A DNA stretch of 64,000 nt, taken from assembly GCA_963969365.1 (NCBI GenBank), contig OZ017749.1:1798001-1862000 (forward strand), read 5' to 3'. A model generated the notes under the pieces. The model saw only the letters and a list, made by a program, of their open reading frames with translations. It ran no database searches and was not told the origin of the DNA. This DNA comes from Asterochloris sp. CNOR1 (Eukaryota; Chlorophyta; Trebouxiophyceae; Trebouxiales; Trebouxiaceae). Position numbers and translations under genes: made by a program. How positions within the stretch are numbered: the stretch's first letter is position 1; every line of letters begins with the position of its first letter. Positions 26,806-49,545 of the stretch are shown here, in pieces.

Positions 26806-27736
26806 ATGGCACACACCAGGCATGCCACCCAAAAGCAACTCCAGGACCCTGCACTGGAGCTCAGGCCTGTGCCAGAAGTGCCCAACTGGTCGTTAGTGGC
26901 GCAAGACAGGGCCCTCTCTCAGCACATCTTCCAGACCGTGGGGCAGCACATTCCACGAAGTCTGCTGATGGCACTGGAGCACAGCGGCAATGGCCTGATC
27001 TGGCTCACCCTGAGCCTGGGGGCTCTGCTCCACCCTGCGCTGTCTGATGACCAACGCTGTCTGGCTGTGAATTTTCTGTTGGCCTTTTTTGTGGATCTTG
27101 CAATTGTGGGGACACTGAAAGGGCTGGTGAGCTTGCTTCCATGCATTCATAAGCTGGGCAGGCAAAATTGTGTGTCCAGTCATGCTTGGAACTGCCATTC
27201 AGTGTTTCACAGTTGCATTTGCCTCTGCAGGTCCGCCGCCCACGGCCCATCTACAACAAGAGTGGCGACTTTTTGCTGGTAGTCTCTGTGGATAGGTTTT
27301 CTTTCCCTTCAGGGCACACCTCCAGGCAAGCTGCATGCAGCCTGCCCGGCAGTGTCCTGGTGGAGTATGGATTGAGTTTGCTACTTGAACAGTGTTGTGC
27401 CGTTGCGTCCCACATGCTGGTGCCTTGTGCTGCAGGGCGGCGTATGTAGCAGCATTCGTCTGCATTTGCTGTGCTGGCACAAGCCCACCCCTTTGCTGGA
27501 TGGTTTCCTTTTGGGCAGCCATAGTGGCTGTCTCAAGGGCAGCCCTCGGCCGGCACTATGCTGGCGATGTGCTGGCTGGCCTTCTAGTTGGCATCATAAA
27601 TGTGGGGTTCACCACACGTGGCACATACAGTCCAGCTGGGTTCTGGGTTGATGCTGAGCAACTTGAGCATCTGACAAAGCTTGCAACCACACAAGGCAGA
27701 CAGTGGCTGCAGCAATGTGCAGGATGCTACTGCTAG
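26806..27736 (+). CDS. PAP2-superfamily lipid phosphatase (PLPP6-like)
   Basis: Membrane phosphatase acting on lipid phosphates or prenyl diphosphates; animal PLPP6 removes phosphate from presqualene diphosphate. Exons 26806-27126, 27231-27325, 27436-27736 give 238 residues in phase. All three PAP2 motifs are present: KGLVRRPRP (K-x6-RP), FPSGH, and SRAALGRHYAGD (SR-x5-H-x3-D). Several hydrophobic helices surround them. The ATG at 26806 was preferred; another in-frame ATG at 26761 would add 15 residues. Intron 2 uses a GC donor (CCAG|GCAAGC). Splicing there restores HTSRAAYVAAF, expected after the PSGH motif, while reading through gives a stop. Confidence 0.9.
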
Positions 27737-28239: not shown

Positions 28240-31200
28240 ATGGCGGACAATGATGACCCCGAAACACCGAGTGCAACGCCCACAGCTGAGGGCCTCACAG
28301 CAAAGGAGCGGCAGGCTGCTGAGAAGCACGCCACCAAGGCAGGGCTACAAATACCTGCAGGCACAGGTGAGCCAGTGGTCAGGGTCGTCCAGCCATGCAG
28401 CTGACATTCACAGCAGCAACGCAGAGCAGTTTGCCAGTGCGTCTCTTCCCTGGCACCCTTGCCAGCTCCGCTACAACAACAGCACTGGCAGCTTGAGGTC
28501 AGCAAGCTGCAGCAGCTGCAGCTACCAGCCCGTCACCAGCAGGCTTTGCTTTTGCATGAGCCCACCAGCCAGATGACAGGCTCTCATATGGTTTCCCTGC
28601 AGTTGCATTGTGCTGCTAGCTAGCTGCTGCTTGCCTGCAGCCAGCCTTACGGCATGTGTCTGGCCAGGAGCCAGTTGCTAAAACAACATGCCGTGCATCT
28701 GCACCTGCACCCCTTGCAGGCCATGCGCTTATCTGAAATTTTGCTGCTTACCATTTGCTTAAGCTGTCTGTCAGATGAAGGCATGCTGAATGATATAGAC
28801 GCTGCATTTGCCCTCAATAATCATCAGGAATGCAGCCTGCAACCATTGAGCAACTTCTTGCAGGCGATGCCCCCAAACAGTACATGGCCAAGCCCTTCAA
28901 CACCCCCTTCCAGGATAAGCTGAAGAGGCCGTCTGCATTGTATCCGGAGGAGAAGGACTTCAAGCGTTACCGCAGAGCCACCACGGTGAGCAGCTTGGTG
29001 GCGTCGGTATCCAGCCCCGCAGGACCCGGGGGTGCCCAACATGTGCTACTGCTGCCAGCAGAGCCACCATGGGGGGCCTGTGATGCTGCCCTGCACATGC
29101 TGTTGCTCCTTGCAGAGTTGCCATGGTGAGTAGCTTGGTACAGCAATCTGCCCTGCATAGCCTGTGGCATTGCTCTTCATGTGATCCGGAGCCAGCAGGG
29201 TCAGCACGGTGAGTGGCTGAGCAACGCCAGCCTGCTGCAGATCTGCAGTGTTGCCGAGCACATGCTAAAGCTTCCAGGCGGAACTCTGGGTGCCCATGTT
29301 CCCCATACTTTGTATTTGTGGGTCCTGTCGTGATGCCCTCTGCATGCTGCCGTCTCCAGCAAGGTGGCAGCGAGCAGCAACAAGGCCTCTCAGCGTCCAG
29401 AGCTACGCCAATCTGGCCTGCTTATGGCAGAGGGTGCGACATGATGAGCCACAATGCATGCCCTGCACCTTTGTGCTGTCCTGTGTACTGCTTGATGCAT
29501 GTAGCTATCGCGTGCAAGCTGAGTTGCCCAGGCTGGATCACCTTGCACTGCTCATCAGCAGTGGGCAGCCCGACAATGCGTGTAGCGTACTGCTTGATGG
29601 TGAGTGCCTGCAGTAGATGGCCACCCTGCAAGCCACTCTAGTGCCCACCTGCCTGCAGCCGCCGGATGCCTGTCGATGGCACTGCCCATGCAGCCCAGAG
29701 CAGCACTCAATCAGTTACTATATTCACTTGCAGGTTAACTGGATCGGCATGATCTCATTCATAACCTACATCTGTGCGCTAGGCTTCTACCTATGGGTAC
29801 GTATCACCAAGACCCTGGGGCTGGGGCCCTACATCGCATATGGCTACTTTGTGCTGATTGTGGAGTGCCTGGGAGCCACCACCGTGATCCTATACGGCAC
29901 CAACTTGCTGTGGAACCCTGTCAATGTCATAGACTACGATGATCGAGGCATGCCAAAGGTGTGCTGAAAGATAGCAATCTGCTGCAGATGAAGAGCCGCC
30001 AAACCCTGCTTCGTTTCTCAGCACGAGCCACACATGCCTGTCCTGCCTGTCGTCAACACAGCATTTCTCATGGGATATGACAATTGCAACTGCCTTACAA
30101 TGGTGCTGCAGTTGTCATCACTGCCATGGCTGTCCTCCTCGCCTTTGCGCCACACCCCTGCATTGTCCCAGACACTCATCCCTGCATCAAGCAGCCCACT
30201 GTCACACCGGCCCCTCTGCCGTGTTCTCCTGTGCTGCTGCCTGCCTTTCTCTGCACCTCCCCTCCACACTTCGCAGCCCACTCCAGCAACACCCCCCACC
30301 CTCTTCCCCCTCAATACTTGAGCTGCAGGGTGTCAAGTATTGAGGGGGTTGATGTTGCTCTACTGCAAGCACAGCTTGGTGACCTGCGGCCAGTAGTCCA
30401 TTCCAGCACTGCTGCATCCCTGCAGCCCATCTGTGCTCTCCTTGCGCATCCCTTCCTTACCTCCAAGCCTGCAGATCAATCTGCCCCACCACATGAATGT
30501 TGTGTCCCACCCCTGGTACTCATCCGCCCCCTCAACACTGCCCACCACATCCCTATCAATTAGTCCTGCGCTGGATCCCTGCAGGTCAACCGGCCGTACC
30601 ACATACGCGTCCTGGTGCCCTGCTACAAGGAGTCACTGGACATCCTGCGCAGAACCATCATGGCTGCCTATGACGCCACCATGCCCGATGGCTGCTCCCG
30701 CACCATCTACTTGTGTGATGACGGCAAGGACCCCAAGAAGCGCAAGTGGGTGGACAGCCTGGGGCCCGAGGTGGTTTACGTGTCTGGGCGCAAGCGGCCA
30801 GCAGGTGGGCTTCGTGGTTGGCAGCTTACCATCAAGGACGAGGACAGCGACATATGCTGTTCGTGATCTTGAGCGGCTGTGGGCCTGGCTGTCTAGCCGT
30901 CGCAACATAGTCTGCAGAGCACCTGCTGCGCCCCTGCAAGTGGAGTCCTGTGGCGCCTGCCAGCGAGTTGTTGAGCTGCGCAGAGACGCCTGGGACCCTG
31001 ATCCTGTGGCGCCAGGTAGCACGCTCAAACTGCTTGCTGCAGCAGCGGGCGTTTTCTGCCTGGACTCCAAGGTCTCTGTGCCCATCTCAATACGCAGGGC
31101 TAAAGCTGAATGTGCTGCAGGGGAGATGAATGGAAAGTCTGGCAACATCAACAATGTGTGCGCCCAGATGTACCCCCAGGGCACTAAAGTCCCCGGCACT

Positions 31201-34200
31201 GAGCTGCTCTGCATTTTCGATGCTGACCAGGTCGCCTCCAAGGAGTTTTTCTTGAAGACAGTGCCCCTGTTTGACGGTGGTGAGCCCTGCTGCAGCCCAT
31301 GCTCCTGCTTTTGATCAGGCTGCACCTGCGTTGCAGTCTGCCATTGCTGCCCTTCATCAACTACACGGCTGTCCCCTGCACTTCCACTCAGTCACGCTTC
31401 TATCCTGCGAGTGACAACCACCTAGGCTGTCTTGGAGCTGCCCGGCAGCAATGCTATCTGCCAGTATACTAGCTGCTGCGTTCTGCCAGGTGATGAGAGA
31501 CTGCAAGGTGGTGACCTGTCATGAATGCTCGTTTTGCAGGTGATGATGTGGGCATGGTGCTGTCCCCCCAGTGCTTCCACAACCTGAATCTCCACTCCGA
31601 CATCTTCAACCACTCGAATGTGCACTTCTGGGAGTACATGCAGCCTGGCTATGACGCCCTTGGCTTCATTTCCTGCACAGGTGGCTGTGTCCAGTTGCGC
31701 TGCCATGACTGCCCCATCTGAGCTGCCGAAGCTTTGCTTCAAGGGGCCCTGGAGGGTGCATTTCAGCGGCATACAAGACCGCACGGACTTAAGCTGTAGC
31801 CCCTGGGTTGTGAGCTTAAGTGTTGATAGGCGAACATGCAGCTCAGTACTGCTGGCCCCTTGTTGCAGGAACCAACTTCCTGGTGAGGGCTAACGCCATT
31901 CTGGAGGTGGGCGGCTCGCCCCAGTACACCCTGACAGAGGACTTTGCCCTGGGCATGGAGATGAAGAAGTTTGGGTGGCACTGCAGGTGGGCACCCACTG
32001 CAGACTGTTCTTGCTGCTGGAAAGGTGCTGGTGATGCTGCTGATGAGAGCCATCTTGCACAGAGCCCAGGTTGACTTTGGCTTGGCAATCTCTGCACAGA
32101 GCTCAGGCTGTGGGGTTTACTATGTGTCGGCAAGTGCCTGCCCCTGTTGAGCAAGCCACCTAAGAGTGGCAAATTCCTTGTTCAGCACGTCAGTTCTGTT
32201 GCAAACCAACAAAGCGAATGCAGTCTCTCCCAGCAAGTGGGCACCTCCTTCCAAACCCTGCGAGTTCCAAACTAAACTGCCAGCAGGCCGTGGCGGGACG
32301 CATCTGTCAGGTCATGCTGTGCCTGGCTGCAGGTATGTGCAGGAGTACCTGGCTATTGGAGAGGCGCCTGACCAGATTCGCAATTGCTACCAGCAACGTT
32401 CGCGGTGGTGCAAGGTGGGCACCTACCTGCCACTCCTGTGTTCTGGTCTGCACCTGCCCAATGCTGCACTGCAAGGCAGTGCTTTACCCACCACCTGGCT
32501 GGCGTGTTGTCAATCTGACAAGCAGCGGGCCAGCTGTCCACCGCACCTTGTGGTGGCATGCGCAGCAGTACTTGTTCAAGGCCACTTCTTTGCCGTCTCA
32601 GCAGCCTCCTCTGCCCTTCATGTGCCACTCAGCACCACCAAGCTTTGATACGAGAAATCTCCCTTGCGTGCAGGGTCACTTCCAGATCATGCTGAACAAG
32701 GAGCGCTGCCCTCTCCTCCAGAGGCGTCTGTCCATCCCCATGCGCCTGCTGTACATGTCAGGCGTGTGGTCCTACTTCGTGGGAGCGCTGTCCGTGCCAG
32801 TCTTGTGGGTGGCTGACCAGTCTACTGCCTGAGCTGCTGAATAGCAACAGGCTGCAGCGCAATCTTTTTGCACTTTCTCAGCAATGGCTGCCAGAGGCCT
32901 TCTTCTTGAGCAGCAAGCAGTGACCACAGCTTCTTGGGTCAGCCTGCTGCCTGTGGCCACAGCATGCTGCTTACCCAGGTGGTCAGAAGGCCATGCTGAG
33001 GGCATCACTTGCAGCTGTGCGTCCTGCCTGCAGCATGTTCAGGGCCTGTCTGACAGCATCGGCCAAACGCTCTCTTTTCAGACTGGGCTCATACCATCCA
33101 TTGAGCTGTGCCTTTTGCCTGCAGCGTCATCATCCCCGTCATCACCATCTGGTTTGGCATTTTTCCTATTGTGGTGTCATGGTGGGCAGCCCTGGGGCTG
33201 ACTGTGTACTTTGTGGCCACTGAGATGGTGCTCTACTACGTCCGCAGCTTCAAGCACGTGGAGGCCCTGTGGTTTGCCAACTTGGCCAACCAGATCCTGT
33301 TTTGGACGTATGTCAAGGTGGGCAGCATGCACTGCCATCAAAGGTCTGACTTCTGCAAAGCAGCCCCAATAGCAAATCAGGAACAGAGTTGAGGGAATGT
33401 GTGTTTCCGGGCTGCAGTTGGTCAGTTGTCATTGTAACAGGCAGGGGGGGTCTTGCTTTTGCTGCAGTCACTATCAGCGGAGGATTGGGTTGGATGGGGC
33501 CTGGATCATTGCTCGCAAAGCACGTCTGCACCGACCCTCCTCAGGCAATGTTTGCTCTTGCTGCAGGCTTTCTGGCGTGCCTTCAGCTCCCTGTTTGGTG
33601 GAGGCATCCAGTTCAAGACCACACTCAAGGGTGCCAGTATGCTGATGAACTCCACGCTGCGCGACCTGTGGATGCCTGGACTCATGTTCTTCCTCATGCT
33701 TGCCTCCCTCATCGACGGCCTGGTTCAGCTGTTCAGAAGTGAGTTCAGCAAGTGCTGCCCTTGGCTGCAGCTGCTTACTATGACTGGCATGCTGCATGTC
33801 TGTCCTGCCCCCCCATCATTGCCTGAGCCTTGTGCTGCCCGCTCATCCAATGTTGGCTGGGGCTACTGAAGCGGTTGTCAGCATGCAGCCAGCCCTGTCA
33901 ACATACCACGCTGCCGCATGGCATGACACACCCTCTTGTAGAGCATGCCAGCTGTTCAGCCCCTGCCTGCACTGACGAAGCTCCTGCAGCCAGCAGTGCG
34001 CACCAGTGATGCCAGTGCGCAGCTCTGTCTGCAACACTGACACAGGCTGCCTTGCCAGCTGCTAGCCACGTCATGAGAGGCATAATTACACGCCTAGATC
34101 TCAAGTGCTGACAGTTGCCCAAGGCTCACACACACCTGCCGGCTGTGTCTGTGTGATACCAAGCACAAGCGTGCCTGCAGGTGCCAGCGTCAACTCCCCC

Positions 34201-37200
34201 CTGGCCATCAGTGTGTGCTGGTGCGTGTACAATGGCATTCCCCATTTCCTCATCGTCTACTACGCCTATGTCTCCAAGGGGCCTTCCCTGGCCTGGGTCT
34301 GCCGCATCTGCATGCTCTTGTCCTTTGTGACTGGCGCACTGGCCGTCGGGCTAATGTGGGGCCTCTACCCCAAGCAGTTTGACATGAAGGTGGGTGGTGG
34401 TTGGGGCCTCCTTGGTACTGGAAGGCAGCACAGCTGTGCCTCCGGTGAGAGACATTTTGCTTACGCCCAATTCTGAGCAGCAGACAGCAAGGCCTGCTGT
34501 ACTCTGCTGTGGTGTGCCGATCTGCCACCCGTGTTCTGCGCATTCAAACTCGCACTGCAGCCAGCAAGCTGGCCTGCTGCGCTCATTCTGGGCTCTGTTC
34601 ACTGTGTCACTTTTTGCGTCTGCCTTGTGCGAAGCAAGACTCTGGAGAATTGGCCTGCCCGATGCCCACCCCCCCAGGCCCCCCCCCTCCCTTCAGCACC
34701 TGGTCGTGGCCAGCAAGCATGCTGCTGCAATCTGGTGGGCTTGCTTGCCTTCCCACTGCACACCACATCACCATGTCCCCCTCACTTGGCCGATACTTAC
34801 CCTCCCCTACCTTGTTTGCAGAAAGTCACCCAGTATGCTTTGTACTACATGGACGCTCAGCGTGTGGGAACGCTACCAGCGGACAATGAGGTGTCCTACC
34901 GCAGCAATGCCCTGGTGTTTGAGGAGACTGTTGGACCGGCCAATGGGGACATCAGTGGCGGCTGGCTGGAGGGCGGGGCCCTGGGAAACCTTAAGATGAC
35001 AGTGCCCACTGCCTTCAGCACCAGCCTGCTGGCCTGGGGCCTGATTGCATTTCCACAGGTCAGTCCACTGGGATTGTTGGTTCTTTGCAGCAGGATTCCC
35101 AGCGGGCAGTGCCCACTGTCAGCACTGGCCTCCTGGCCGGGGGCCTCGTTGCGTGCAGCAGATCAGCTTCCTTGAAATGTCGGTCATGTGGCACTTCCTT
35201 CCCTCCCGCAGAAGGGCTTCCAGCTGCTCGACCTGGTTGCCCATGGTGGAGATGTGCAGAGCTGCAGATCAGCTGCTTTGCCTCTCACTGTAGCAGTGTC
35301 TGCAGGTCATAGGCAGCTCAAACAAACACCTGATGCAGGCCACCAACATTCCATGTGCCCCCCCAGCTCGACTCTGGACCCCTGCTTATGCTGTAAACCT
35401 TCTTGCATCAGCAGGCTGCTGCAATTTGCATTTCTGGCAGATCTTTTGCACACCAAACGTGCAGGCAACAGCCTTCACGTCCAGTACAGGCGTCAGTCAT
35501 GCATGTCTCTGCAGCATGGCCTGGCTGTGCTGCAGGGCTACTCACAGGCCAACATGACCACCCGGGCCATGGCATCTGTCCGCTGGGGCTCAGACTATCT
35601 GCTGAAGATGATAGGGCAGGGCGTCAACGGTTCAGAGCTGATCTACCAGGTGCGCAAGCTGCAGGCCTATGGTGTGCTGCAGTGTTGGCCTGCAGCAGTC
35701 TGTCAACATTGAACCACATGGCAGGAGGCAGAAGTGCAGCAGACAGCTTTGAAGGACCAGTACAACACACAGCTGTTGCCAGCGCCATGGCTGCCGTCTT
35801 GCAGCTGTGCAGCAACACCTGGCCCCTGTGCCTTCAGCTGCAGCAGCTTGTACACATGTAGCTGGCAGCAGCTGCAATCCTGCAGCAGGCCTCTTTGACG
35901 TCTCGACCTCTGACCTTCTCGCGCGTAACCTACTCATTCATAGCTAGCTGCCGCCCAGCCCTGCAACAGGCCCTCATGCGCTCTGCCATTCAAGCAGCAA
36001 TACTGCTCTGATCTGCTGGGCCTCTGCAGGTTGGCAACTGGACCACTGACCAGACATACTGGGGCCGCCCGGAGGACATCACTGGTGCCCGCCCTTACTA
36101 CAAAACCATCACAGGTGGGGCATGGGGCACACTTCCCTGGGCTCTAGGTGCTCGTTGCCAATCAGGCTGCTGTGGCTGCTGGTGCTACCCAAGGCCTGAA
36201 GCACAAACTTGTGGCAAGCAGCTGTTGCAGGCTGCATTCAGCAACAAGCCTGACCTATAAAGACATGCATGTAAAGAGCACATGCAATTTGTGCAGAGTC
36301 TCACATTGTGCACTTCTGTGTCGCATCCAGACTGCAGCATGTGGAGGAAGCTGCACACAGCCCAGTCTCCCACATGAAGCTCTGACCACTGGTTTGCTGT
36401 CCCTCCTGCCTGCAGACAATGGCGCTTCTGACTTGGCTGGAGCCATGATCGCTGCCATGGCAGCCTCATCCATCGTCTGGCAGAGCACTGACTACGGCTA
36501 CTCCCAGACCCTGCTGGCTGCAGCCTCTGATCTCTATGCCTATGCCACAGAGGTCAAAGGGCTCTACGCCAGTGCGGTGAGCCTCGCAACTTGCAACCAC
36601 AGTGCCCCTGCATGTGCCAGAAGCGGCCACCAGGGCTGCACTCCGCCTCTGCCTCAGCCCTGCTTTGCTTGCAGCCTGTTTTGGCCAAGCTGTGACCTGC
36701 TGGCTGCCCCCATGCTGGCCCTGCTGACTTGCGACCAGATGCCAGGCCTGACCTCCCCCCTGGGCCTGCCTGCAGGTGACGGTGCCCTACTGCCCCAGCC
36801 CCTACAGCCAGGTCTACCTGGCCTCCCTGGAGACGCTGACCCCCCTGACGCTGTGCACAGCGCAGGAGGCGAACCTGAATGGCAGCGCTGTGGGCCAGTA
36901 CAATGGGACCACCTACTATGACGCCCTGCTGTGGGCTGCCGCCTGGATGTTCAAGGCCACAGGGGACAGTACCTACCTGACAGACTCAGAGGACTTCTAC
37001 GTCCGCCATGTCTACAATGTGAGCAGGCCTGTGGGTGCAGCTGCGGGTGTGCTTGCAGGTGCCACTTGCAGTCTGTGTGTGGAAGCAGGGCTACCTGCAG
37101 GCACAGAACAGTTGGCAGCAGAAGACTGAAACTGGGGACAGCGCACGGGGCTGCCAGCTTGCCAGGTCACAGATGGCTTCCTCGCTGCGTTTTGTGCTTT

Positions 37201-38832
37201 CTGACCGCAGCCGCGCAAGCTCTGCTCCTGCCCTGCTGTAGGAGGGTGGCGGCGCCACACTGACCTATGACTGGTCCAGCTACTACTGGGCTGGCAATGT
37301 GCTGCTGGCAGAGCTGACAGACGGCGGCACCTTCCACCAGCAGAGCCAGCACTTCATGAAGATGTGGGTGTGTGGATCTGGCGGGGTGAGCAGGCTCAAC
37401 TGGCACTGTCAGGGCACCCTCTGGGCAGCCGCTGACCTTGACAACCTAGTGCCATACCAGGCTGCAGCTGCTCTGGCGTGGTGCCAGGCTGGTGCCTGTC
37501 AGTAGCTGCTGTGGATGCCTGCTGCACCTGTGGGGGACGCTCTTGCAGTGCAATGGGAGTCACCGCTGAAGGCAGAGGTGCAGCCAGCCTTGCAGCAGAG
37601 GCATGAGCAATCTCCATGGCACCTGGTTTTGCTCTACAACTGGTGCCAACAAAGTGCAGCTGTCAATGCTCAATGAGATGTCATTCCTGTCCTTGACCCT
37701 GCTGCCACCTTGTGCACAAGGTGGTTTGGACCCTGGCAGTGCAGCTGCCCTCCGCCACAGAGCACAAGCAACCTGCTTGACTCCTTCCAACCCATTTGTT
37801 GCTTCTTCTGCCCCTTGCAAAGCAGCACCTGTCCTTTGCAGTGCACCTGTCTCGCGAAGTCATCAATATCTCCAACGCCCACTACCAGCCTGCCTGCTGC
37901 AGTACATCAAGTTCACACCACTGGGACGCGCCTTCAACAATATTGGCGGCTCTATGACGCTGGGTGCCACCATGAACGCTGCCTTCCTGGCGAGCGTGTA
38001 TGGGCAGTACATCCAGGGAGGCACCAAGGAAAACCAGCAGAAGGGGAAGCGCTACGTCTGCTGGGCGCGTGGCCAGGTAGGTCCTCCTGCTGGCCTGGTG
38101 TGCCTGTTGGGGATGCCTGCTTGGCTGCATGAGGATGCACCAGCACGTTGTCCAGAGAAACTGCTTTCTGGCTGGGAGGCAGGACTCAGCTCAGATCAGG
38201 ACCAGCTGACCGGCTGCTGGAGTCCTGGCCAGACGGTGCCAGCCAGCCCAGCACCACCTGCCTTTTGAAAGTGCTAGCACAGCATGCTGAGGAGCAATGT
38301 GCCCCTCAGGGTCGGGGGAGTGTGTAATGCTGTTATGGGTTGTTGTGAGCAGCGCTCTATTGCAATGCCAGCTGTGAGTCAAGATCTGGCGGGCAGGAGT
38401 GCAGGCTGCACACCCACCACTGTGTGCCTGAGGTGATCACCACATGCCATGCAGAGCCGGTATGTGCTGGGCGATGGCGGGCGCAGCTTTGTAGGCGGAT
38501 TTGGCAAGAAGGCCCCTGTCCAGCTTCAGAACGAGGCCGCATCCTGCCCCAACGCACCGACGGCCTGCAATGCCGTCAACGGCCTGCTGAATCCTCTGGC
38601 TAATCCCCAGGTGCTGTATGGCGCTCTGGTGGAGGGCGGGATCCTGTACGCCCAGGCCACAGACAGCTACACAGACGTCCGCTCAGCAAACAACTCGCGG
38701 ACAATGATTGAGTACAATGCTGGCTTTGCAGGGCTGGCTGCTGGTCTGCAACAGGCTCCTGGCACCTGGGAGCAGTGCCTGCAGGGCTATGGCCAGCTCA
38801 CCAAGGACACCCTGGTATGCGACGTGTCCTAG
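28240..38832 (+). CDS. Fusion of cellulose-synthase-like GT2 glycosyltransferase with GH9-like domain
   Basis: About 1,152 residues from 21 exons in phase: 28240-28366, 28864-28985, 29734-29958, 30585-30804, 31121-31279, 31540-31680, 31869-31986, 32333-32414, 32674-32804, 33125-33317, 33567-33738, 34181-34389, 34822-35058, 35212-35235 (doubtful), 35536-35649, 36030-36114, 36416-36576, 36776-37018, 37242-37385, 37903-38076, 38455-38832. After two membrane helices the GT2 core has every catalytic motif: CDDGKD, FDADQ, TEDF and QQRSRW. GKSGNINN and about six more helices follow. About 13 residues after the last helix a GH9 (endoglucanase) fold starts (AQRVGTLP, then GGW, RWGSDYLL, YWGRPEDI, YDWSSYYWAGN, YVLGD, IEYNAGFAG). 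GT2 should polymerise a beta-glucan at the membrane. GH9 lacks the DAGD aspartates and the catalytic Glu, so it may bind rather than cut. Two genes are the alternative; the GH9 part has no start codon or signal peptide of its own. Confidence 0.85.
30306..30348. repeat. Perfect 16-bp inverted repeat in a GT2-GH9 intron
   Basis: CCCCCTCAATACTTGA (30306-30321) and its exact reverse complement (30333-30348) flank an 11-base loop containing GCTGCAGG. It lies in the intron 29959-30584. Confidence 0.9.
35109..35159 (+). repeat. Degenerate copy of the end of GH9 exon 34822-35058
   Basis: TGCCCACTG...AGCAC.GGCCTCCTGGCCGGGGGCCTCGTTGC mirrors the exon end at 35003-35050 (TGCCCACTGCCTTCAGCACC, then CTGGCCTGGGGCCTGATTGC). 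It sits in the adjoining intron with an internal deletion. Confidence 0.7.
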
Positions 38833-39052: not shown

Positions 39053-39057
39053 TGTAA
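39053..39057 (+). terminator. TGTAA poly(A) signal after the GT2-GH9 gene
   Basis: TGTAA lies 221 bases beyond the stop at 38832, in the convergent gap before the minus-strand gene that ends at 39188. Confidence 0.4.
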
Positions 39058-46085: not shown

Positions 46086-46709
46086 TATGCAATTGACAAC
46101 CCATTGTTTGACGGCACACCCAGCATGAGGAAGGGGGCGCCACCAGCGCAGAGCACCTCAAATGGCTCGTTTCATGAACCTCAGACAGCACAGTGGCCAT
46201 GTACAAGCAGATGGGCGGCTTCAACTGCAGCCTTCAGGCTTGCAGTCAACAAATCAGAGGCCATAGATCATGCACATATCTCGCCCAGATCTGCTGCAGC
46301 AGCCACAGGCTGAAGTTGAAACGAGCCGCTACACATCACACAGCAGACCTTTGCAACTCAGGAACTGCCATGGAAGTCAAGCAGTACGACTTGCACAGAC
46401 TTTGGGCTTTGCATGTCTTGCTTAAAGGTTGTGTTGCCTTACTACGTGCGAAGCAAGTCGACCGCGCTCTGCATCAACTTGTTGCTTTTGCTTTGCTTAT
46501 TGCGTCCTTGCTTTGCATGATCTGTGCTACCTTCGGTCAGAAGGGCGCAAGAAGAGAGTATAGCAACTTGTTGGGGGAGACCTCTTCGCTGAACTTCCTC
46601 CATTGTTGCTTGCTTACTATGTGCATGCAGCACTGCTTCAGCCTCAGTCAGCGTTGTCTCTGGTTCTTCCAAGTTCCAAGGTGTGACCCCCATGTCCTAT
46701 TCATTTACA

Positions 46710-46734
46710 CCCCCCCCCCCCCCCCCCCCCCCCC
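46710..46734 (+). repeat. Poly-C tract (25 C)
   Basis: An uninterrupted run of C followed by GACTTGGACAT, about 280 bases upstream of the GT90 start. The second copy has the same arrangement. Confidence 0.9.
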
Positions 46735-47017
46735 GACTTGGACATTGCCTCGCTTCTCTATCCTGTGGTGTTGTGCACTTCATTACGTGGTATTCACGGT
46801 GGGATTTGGGGGCCTCGAGCCGCCGATGCAGGTGTCTCACATAGCCCAGATGATCTATAACTTGTCTGTGCTTTCCACCCTCTTCCTTCCACACAAGGAA
46901 GGGCATTTCCTGCTGCGGTACACACAGCAACGTCTCCTACTTCCTTTCTTCTCCACCGGATCTCCATGCACCGGATCTAGACTCTTGACGTCAGAGCAAG
47001 CTCCTAGAGGCCAAGCA

Positions 47018-49545
47018 ATGAAGGCAGATGTAGCCCTAGCTAGCTTGATGCTAGCTGCTACGCCTTCTCTCACGGCAGCAGCAAACGGTGAGGACATTGC
47101 GCTCAGTCCCCAGACATGTTTGGCTCCACTCACCAACGAGCAAGCATGCTGGTGCGCAGGCCAGATGCACTCCAGCATTTTCTTGGAACAGAATTGCTCA
47201 GCATATGGAGACCATCAGCGCTTGGTGAGGCCCCAGGTGTCAGGCTACTTATGCAGCCCATCTTACCCCTTGCAGATGGCTATGATAGGTTTGCATGCAG
47301 CCCACCAAAGGCTCTGACCTCAGCAAATCTGTGGCCCTGTAGGTGGACGAATGGCTGTACCCGTTCCGCCCAGCCATCAGCCCAGCCAGCGTTGTCCAGT
47401 TCCCCCACCCTGAGCACTGGACTCCCACAGATGAGGGGTTTGCACGCCTGCCCTTGCTGTTTAGTATTGACGGCAAACTGCTGGCGCACCCAACCATTGC
47501 TCACTTACCAGCAACCGGAGCCGAGGCAAATCACATGGTGAGCAGAAAAGCAGCATCCTTGACATCATGTTTGCACGGTCTGTATCGTGCCTTTGCCAAT
47601 CTGCCTAGAGGCGGAGTCGAAGAAGACACTGTCAGATGATGTTGCAGCAGCTCTGGAGCATACTTATCACCTCTGTACAGAGTGTGGATAGCTGATAGCA
47701 TCTGCAGGTGTAAAGTTGGCGGCTCTGCACCACACAGGTTTCGTGTGACCCTGCAACAGCCTCAGCTGGACATCGCTGCTGTGAGCACCCTAGCTTAACC
47801 CCCTTGTCATGCTTGAGTTGCAGGTCTCCTCTTGCACCTGGTCTGAGAACCTGCCGGGCATTGCCTTGCCTTTTGCATCTTGCAATAGGGATGTGGCATG
47901 CAACTTGACACTGATGCCCTGCAGGGCATCAATCACCAGGGAAACATAGGACACTTTGCAATTCCTGTCCTGCAACAGGTCATGGCGCACGTCCAGTTCG
48001 ACGACTTTGTGGTTGCAGCTGACCCATGTGAGCCACTCCAGGCACTTGTTGCTGAGCTGCCTGCTCTGTGCTAGAGGGGCCCTGCCATGCTTCGTGCTGC
48101 TGTTCTGCATGCCCAAACCCCTGTGATGTGGCCCTGGTACTGCAGTGGCTGCCAGAGGGTTCCTTTGTGTTGTGTGTTGACCCTGCTGTGGCATGTATAA
48201 TCTCTTTAGAAGCTGCAATCTGGGCCTTGGACACCTTCTCTTTCACAGCTGTTAGCACTATAACAGAGCAAGCTATACGCCTGTGCCTCTGTGCAGATGA
48301 CAAACCTCTTGTGGGGCATCTGCGCCCGCCGTTCCCCTACCTTTCATACTGCAGCCTCAGAGGCAGGGGTGCTGTAATGCCCATGCCTGAAAGTCTGAGG
48401 CCAGCCGCATTTGGGGGCAAGCCCTCCAGGGCCGGTGCCAATGACACCAGAGACCCTAGAGCTGTCTTTCTTGGCAGTGCCACAGGTGCACTGAAGTCAG
48501 ATTTGCCCACCATTTCCAAGTTCCTGTTGGTGGCCTTCAGCCCCACGCAGGCCTTAGGCAGTGGCTGTTACTGGTGCAGGCTGGCAAAACGGCCGACGCC
48601 AAGCGGTGTGCCGGTCAGGCGCAAAGCACCCTCAGGCCCTTTACACTGGCATCACAAGCTGGCATAATGTTCTCACAAGGTCACAGAATGTCGCAGAACT
48701 TGAGTCATTCACAAAGGAGCCCAAGTCCCTCCAGGAGCAAGTGGATGGATTCAGACACATTGTGAGCCAAATGACTTGGTCTGTGGCCAAACATTGGTCG
48801 TGTTGGTGGGTTCACTATATTTGTGGCCTGGTCGTGGTCGAATTGGCTTTGGGGCAATGTGCTGCAGCTGACCAGAGGCAGTTATCACACACTATGCTTC
48901 ATGGGCTATTGGTATCAGGCCAAGCGCAGCATCACTCAGCTGTTGGTCGCAAAACATGTAGTGCTGATGGTCACGCCCGATTGTCATGCCGGCCATCCAG
49001 CATGAGGACCCAAGCCATGCTGACAAGAAGCCTGTGTCACCCTGCCGTTGCAGATTTATGTGGATGGTTACTGCGCGGCCCTGAGGCTGAGGGACCTGCT
49101 CAGTTCAGACTGCACAGTTCTCTACCTGACCAGTCCGGAGGAGTTGTGGTACAGCAACCTAATCATACCTTGGCAACATGTGATTCCAGTAGTGTAAGTA
49201 CAAGTAGCATGCGGTTTTTGGAGATGTAGGCTCCAATAACTCCAAGCTGCAGGCAGCTTCCGTCTCGCGAGCCAGCCTGACAATGCTGATTGCTGCAGAT
49301 ATGAGCCAGGAGTCTTTCCTGAGGGCTCCAATCTGCTCTGGGCGGCCAAGTGGGCCCAAGATCACCCAGCAGAGGCAGCTGATATTGTGAGCAAGGCCAG
49401 AGCTTTTGCTGACTTGCATCTCTCTGAGTTGGGTCAGACATGCTACACCGTGCGCCTGTTCCATGAGTACAGCAAGCTGATGACTGATCGTGGACGCATA
49501 CCTGAGCTGGTGTCATACATGAAAAAAAGTGAAAAGGTGCATTAG
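47018..49545 (+). CDS. GT90-family O-glycosyltransferase, tandem copy 1
   Basis: Seven exons in phase: 47018-47224, 47343-47537, 47925-48027, 48297-48485, 48580-48761, 49054-49193, 49299-49545; 420 residues. The N terminus (ALASLMLAATPSLTAAANG) suits a signal peptide, so the enzyme is probably in the ER/Golgi or secreted. Family landmarks of GT90 (CAP10, Rumi/POGLUT, plant O-glucosyltransferases) are PPFPYLSYC, VFLGSATGGWQNGRR, IIYVDGYCAALRLRDLL, then ELWYSNLIIPWQHVIPV and DHPAEAADIVSKARAFADLH with HEYSKLM near the end. GT90 enzymes typically transfer glucose or xylose to protein or polysaccharide acceptors; the substrate here is unknown. The intron 47538-47924 could hide another exon. Every exon has the same length as in copy 2. 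Confidence 0.85.

Follow-up and report, generated by a model that had tools for sequence, protein, structure and literature searches.

A cellulose synthase-like GT2 gene that continues into a GH9-fold domain with replaced catalytic residues in the green alga Asterochloris sp. CNOR1

The stretch of Asterochloris sp. CNOR1 DNA analyzed here (64,000 nucleotides, referred to as the window) corresponds to positions 1798001 to 1862000 of contig C4 (OZ017749.1) in a genome of 56.4 Mb and 21 contigs. It harbors a gene at 28240..38832 on the forward strand (+), the strand of all window features described below, which is predicted to encode a protein of 1144 amino acids composed of a cellulose synthase-like enzyme of glycosyltransferase family 2 (GT2) followed by a domain with the fold of glycoside hydrolase family 9 (GH9). 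From the ATG at 28240 to the stop codon ending at 38832, 20 exons are joined in frame by introns that all display GT-AG ends (19/19). The many short introns, a G+C content of 58% over the 206 kb sampled and the parallel published for Coccomyxa suit a green alga of the Trebouxiophyceae. The model was evaluated by spliced alignment, using as queries six paralogous protein models that all start at the first transmembrane helix (TM1). First-round paralogue models contained spurious short N-terminal exons and were dropped; models from a second round of spliced alignment were used. Exons 4 to 19 were recovered with identical ends by three to six of the six queries, including the exons that flank the boundary between the two parts (34181-34389 by five, 34822-35058 by six). 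Exon 3 was recovered with identical ends by fewer than three, and exons 1 and 2 lie outside the query range. As the paralogue models had first been built with the window protein as a guide, this support is only partly independent. In the joined protein, Pfam detects GH9 at residues 634-1113 (E=4.8e-81, covering profile positions 3-443 of 444) and GT2 families over residues 165-462 (PF13641, E=1.1e-16; PF13632, E=3.9e-14). A preliminary description of this DNA had proposed a complete GT2 core with membrane helices joined to a full-length GH9 domain and had called for a domain search of the joined protein; both the in-frame model and the Pfam matches on one chain confirm the proposal, and judged from sequence the two parts belong to one gene model.

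The first two exons (28240..28985, comprising 28240-28366 and 28864-28985) were predicted from sequence alone and form the least certain part of the model; they would encode a polar, probably cytosolic N-terminal tail. Exon 3 (29734..29958) encodes two hydropathy-predicted helices, TM1 (residues 87-105) and TM2 (117-135). The GT2 catalytic core is encoded by exons 4 to 8 (30585..32414; PF13641 match at residues 165-398) and is also recognized by matches to solved structures and curated models. It carries, in order, DDG (CDDGK, 30714..30728), DAD (FDADQ, 31216..31230), TED (LTEDF, 31931..31945) and the QxxRW motif of processive GT2 enzymes, here QRSRW (within QQRSRW, 32391..32408). Hydropathy and alignment to BcsA place a 60-residue two-helix region (TM3-4, residues 423-482), an interface stretch and TM5 in exons 9 to 11 (32674..33738), along with FKTTLKG (33612-33632), a motif that resembles a gating loop. 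Exon 12 (34181..34389) encodes TM6 and TM7 and is the final exon of the GT2 part. With two helices before the core and five after it, the total is seven; as this number is odd, the C terminus would lie on the side of the membrane opposite the cytosolic GT2 core. The best matches among solved structures are bacterial BcsA (5ej1 and 4hg6, E of about 1e-30, residues 144-581). The top-ranking NCBIfam model is that of the cellulose synthase CelA (TIGR03030, E=1.1e-45), with a score of 155.9 bits, far short of its cut-off of 699.1; the window GT2 thus appears to be a relative, not a member, of this bacterial equivalog. The protein thus resembles BcsA and CelA in its GT2 core with DDG, DAD, TED and QxxRW and in an FxxTxK-like gating-loop motif. 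BcsA ends in a C-terminal PilZ domain and works with a separate GH8 enzyme, whereas Pfam finds no PilZ match in the joined window protein and the same chain carries the GH9 fold.

Seven loci, spread over five contigs, show a GT2 part followed by a GH9 part on the same strand. Loci were sought with exon-wise PF00759 and PF13632 searches and with the window GT2 protein, followed by spliced alignment, and all locus counts are lower bounds. Besides the window copy on C4, the fused genes are C4b, located about 30 kb downstream of the window gene (C4, 1867-1876 kb), C1 (C1, 203-214 kb), C8a (C8, 194-206 kb), C8b (C8, 1793-1804 kb), C14 (C14, 2300-2310 kb) and C16 (C16, 1758-1768 kb). Of the eight GH9 loci found in the genome, all but one are thus fused. 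The eighth (C6, 2561-2567 kb), near which no GT2 was found, is excluded from all counts of fused copies; it reads YYEAGG in place of DAGD and its C-terminal exons are unsure, and by this reading it is perhaps inactive too. A termite GH9 query matched only the same eight loci, and a whole-genome search with one degenerate pattern for an uninterrupted canonical DAGD returned no matches, both results being subject to the same bound.

The GH9-fold domain of the window protein (residues 634-1144) is encoded by exons 13 to 20 (34822..38832). Among solved structures, termite and other endoglucanases align with it in two stretches that together span most of the domain, and all seven fused domains match PF00759. 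The DAGD, NEV and HHR motifs hold the catalytic roles in GH9 enzymes. With the termite enzyme 1ks8 as reference, the window copy reads WLEGGA in place of DAGD (34963..34980), the catalytic Asp residues being replaced by Glu and Ala; DQTYW in place of DHAFW (36048..36062), with Gln for His and Trp kept; LQNEA in place of PHHRS (38524..38538), with His, His and Arg all replaced; and NNSRTM in place of HNEVA (38689..38706), with Arg for the catalytic acid Glu. In the order window, C1, C14, C16, C8a, C8b and C4b, the first Asp of DAGD is E, T, E, D, T, Q and E, and the second is A, I, E, N, a gap, D and S, the register of the second being less sure due to small insertions after GG. Each Asp is therefore kept in one of the seven copies, never together with the other. 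All seven copies lack the acid Glu (R, L, R, G, R, A and T in its place), and all seven lack the His of DHAFW. Other features are retained: all seven copies have the GG that precedes DAGD and the DELVW Asp, and an aromatic residue is kept at the HAFW (6/7), DELVW (5/7), NWD (7/7) and DYNAGF (4/7) places, which we take to line the sugar cleft. The seven domains also share an invariant Cys-Trp pair (381-382) and a C-terminal Cys (494) that are absent from, or not reached by, the aligned termite sequence. These replacements hint that the fused GH9 domains are catalytically dead. The preliminary description had spoken of a "glucan-recognising" domain encoded in one chain with GT2, and that part of its reading stands: given the replacement of the usual catalytic residues, this term suits the domain better than "cellulase".

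The two parts of the window gene meet at a phase-0 intron of 432 bases (34390..34821, GTGGGT...TTGCAG). Reading through it adds 28 residues before an in-frame stop codon at 34474-34476, the stop that had been noted at 34476. The spacer between the last helix (best 19-residue window, 603-621) and the start of GH9 (634) measures 12 residues, close to the 13 or so first estimated, and would be shorter if the helix extends to 628. A junction that falls in an intron whose read-through terminates could mean that a GT2 synthase gene and a neighboring GH9 gene have been misjoined across 34390-34821. Plants do hold GT2 and GH9 as separate genes: KORRIGAN is encoded by a gene of its own and has an N-terminal anchor and active catalytic residues. 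The window protein resembles this system in bringing a membrane-located GH9 domain close to a cellulose synthase, and it differs in that its GH9 domain is not a stand-alone protein with an N-terminal anchor; its GH9 exon continues the GT2 protein. An in-frame Met also lies upstream of the GH9 exon, after the preceding stop, in three of the seven copies (C1, C4b and C14). The window is not among them, as no in-frame ATG occurs between the upstream stop and its GH9 exon. Against a pair of separate genes, the same order is observed at all seven loci on the five contigs, with a gap of 339-432 bases, namely the intron that precedes the GH9 exon; the median of 138 modelled introns, some of them doubtful, is 348.5 bases. 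The phase-0 intron at residue 634 is common to the window, C16 and C8a. In the window the last helix shares exon 12 with TM6, but in two other copies it shares an exon with GH9: the modelled C8b exon 1798016-1797791 begins with the entire last helix and continues into GH9, and the modelled C1 exon 207434-207192 begins within that helix and does likewise (each recovered by three of six queries). The fusion is thus independent of any single inferred splice. TGTAA serves as a polyadenylation signal in chlorophytes. It occurs at 39053, 221 bases past the stop codon, at four places inside the gene and in none of the seven introns that precede GH9. This absence speaks weakly against two genes, about 1.4 occurrences being expected from the density in the window; we did not use TGTAA as a test for gene ends, because four copies lie within the gene and chance accounts for the intron result. 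A scan of the junction intron for bacterial promoters and terminators returned none, which is not meaningful for a eukaryote. The scenario of transcripts ending in 34390-34821 and a separate GH9 start finds no support in the sequence, given the missing ATG in the window and the seven loci.

Five of the seven fused copies preserve the GT2 motifs DDG, DAD, ED and QxxRW. The motifs are lost from the other two: C8b reads DDS, KSD, AES and DHNIR, and C4b reads DSH, RDD, AVH and TKMQE. Both still match Pfam GT2 families, and the splice model keeps long reading frames in both. By sequence these would be doubly dead proteins, in the GT2 as well as the GH9 part, and it is possible that they are accessory subunits. 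Three GT2 genes were found without GH9, namely C6b (C6, 1647-1653 kb), C12 (C12, 720-726 kb) and C13 (C13, 1468-1473 kb), the models of the latter two being approximate. All three carry DAD, TED and QxxRW; C6b has DDG, and C12 and C13 have DDS. No convincing GH9 remnant was detected near any of them (best E=0.12). An exon-by-exon genome search with PF03552 found nothing, although this family is matched in the joined protein. Among the GT2 genes, C6b is most similar to the window copy (65% identity); its reading frame ends some 35 residues beyond the last helix.

The two parts of the fused genes do not diverge alike. In five pairwise comparisons, differences at second codon positions are 0.38-0.41 in GH9, compared to 0.52-0.55 at third positions, and 0.20-0.35 in GT2, compared to 0.41-0.57. 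In a 9-row GH9 tree, the window, C8b, C1 and C14 form a clade (100/99), and C16 and C8a group with the termite and C6 GH9 sequences (90/89). A single origin of the fused GH9 domains was considered and is unsupported by this tree. In an 11-row GT2 tree, two of eight inner branches are well supported and four are open. C6b, which is without GH9, pairs with the window copy (80/95), and this suggests, but does not prove, a secondary loss of GH9 in C6b. Searches for relatives found none in viral contigs and two weak loci in prokaryote genomes (23 and 26% identity).

The gene just upstream of the fused gene (27389-27736) appears to encode a PAP2-family phosphatase (PF01569, E=1.3e-07 for the frame). 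Among the open frames of the window, the longest lies at 46178-47314 (379 codons between stops); Pfam gives no match to it at E up to 0.001, and it may not be a gene.

The preliminary description took a GT2-GH9 fusion to be undescribed, and in this it was mistaken. The available text of a 2012 study of Coccomyxa subellipsoidea C-169 reports four such fusions among nine GH9 proteins and draws a comparison with the tunicate fusion (PMC3446292), so the fusion itself was already known in another green alga. Asterochloris resembles Coccomyxa in having a cellulose synthase-like GT2 and GH9 in one predicted protein, with several copies in each genome; the proportions differ, with four of nine GH9 proteins fused there and seven of eight GH9 loci here. 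That text, compared here by description, does not mention the GH9 catalytic residues, and in the open-licence literature, outside which most subscription journals lie, we found no statement in the accessible texts that algal fused GH9 domains are inactive; the one search directed at lost catalytic residues returned no papers. In tunicate CesA, as far as the accessible parts of PMC6523144 and PMC7464555 describe it, seven helices are followed by a GH6 domain whose catalytic Asp is not conserved. By analogy, this protein is a published parallel to a synthase with a non-catalytic hydrolase domain: it shares with the window protein the seven helices, the glycoside hydrolase domain straight after TM7 and the unconserved catalytic Asp. 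It differs in belonging to animals and in using GH6, for which Pfam gives no match in the joined window protein; in the window copy none of the three catalytic residues is retained, Glu having taken the place of the first Asp.

We favor, with moderate confidence and on the basis of sequence comparison, the interpretation that the gene encodes a membrane glucan synthase whose outer, C-terminal GH9-fold domain binds or guides the chain as it emerges, without cleaving it. The gene, which we infer to be transcribed as one message, would specify a processive beta-glycan synthase that is embedded in the membrane and belongs to the bacterial cellulose synthase (BcsA/CelA) type, probably making a beta-1,4-glucan. 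With the GT2 core in the cytosol between two preceding and five following helices, the C terminus would emerge on the outer or lumenal face and place the GH9 domain beside the channel exit. There, lacking the usual catalytic residues, the fold may bind or steer the new chain, or neighboring chains or subunits, with no cutting. Several observations weigh against this interpretation. Some replacements remain acidic, with Glu substituting for the first Asp in the window, C14 and C4b and for the second as well in C14, so that a shifted activity is conceivable in these three copies. Candidate sugar contacts have been lost, with the Trp of MWGTLR missing from all seven copies and the Arg of LRHA from five. 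The first His of HHR is also lost in all seven, with the second His kept in C8a and C4b and the Arg in C1 and C4b. GH9 diverges faster than GT2, window and C14 sharing 45% identity in GH9 and 58% in GT2 and differing at second codon positions by 0.38 and 0.21, respectively; constraint on the GH9 part is therefore moderate, though real. Glycosylation sequons in the seven GH9 parts (37 observed, 31.8 expected, p=0.175) provide no mark of a lumenal location. Hydropathy flags two weaker stretches within GH9 (692-710 and 781-799), which are taken as core helices of the fold. Finally, the available text of PMC3446292 ascribes cellulase activity to the tunicate hydrolase domain, at odds with PMC7464555.

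A structural role for the domain would account for some of the same observations. In such a role the GH9 fold would pack subunits into a synthase array without binding sugar, and the dead-GT2 copies C8b and C4b would serve as scaffolds. The retention of the whole fusion in two of the seven copies despite the loss of their GT2 motifs agrees with this, as does the finding that C8b is closer to the window copy in its GH9 part (45% identity) than in its GT2 part (37%). Several of the cleft aromatics are nevertheless largely kept, and we consider a purely structural role unlikely. It is likewise doubtful, in our estimate, that the product of the synthase is a different beta-glycan, such as beta-mannan, which the GH9 fold would then recognize. 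The sugar is not fixed by the GT2 sequence alone, and a review distinguishes types of chlorophyte wall, some of which contain glucan, mannan and chitin (PMC10762512, available text); CelA as the best curated match and BcsA as the best structures point the other way. An active hydrolase with rearranged catalytic residues, trimming the new chain as proposed for bacterial GH8 and plant KORRIGAN, strikes us as improbable: the GH9 fold is retained in full and acidic residues persist at DAGD places (the first Asp in C16, the second in C8b, and the Glu residues described above), but the acid Glu has given way to residues with no common substitute among the seven copies, and the loss of the first His of HHR is universal. 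Very remote, and rejected here on the seven loci and the two copies whose GH9 exon holds the last helix, is the misjoining of two neighboring genes, against which the same architecture annotated in Coccomyxa (PMC3446292, available text) also counts.

If the interpretation of a chain-guiding GH9 fold is correct, it bears on the open question of how a new glucan chain is dealt with as it leaves its synthase, and on the old puzzle of why cellulose synthesis needs cellulases. An apparently dead cellulase domain carried by a synthase at seven loci, with a parallel in tunicates, would represent a natural separation of binding from cutting. This raises the possibility, which we put forward tentatively, that green algae and tunicates independently added cellulase folds (GH9 and GH6, respectively) after TM7 and that both lost catalysis. 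A non-cutting, glucan-gripping exit domain would then have evolved twice, and the doubly dead copies of Asterochloris would act as accessory subunits within a mixed synthase complex.

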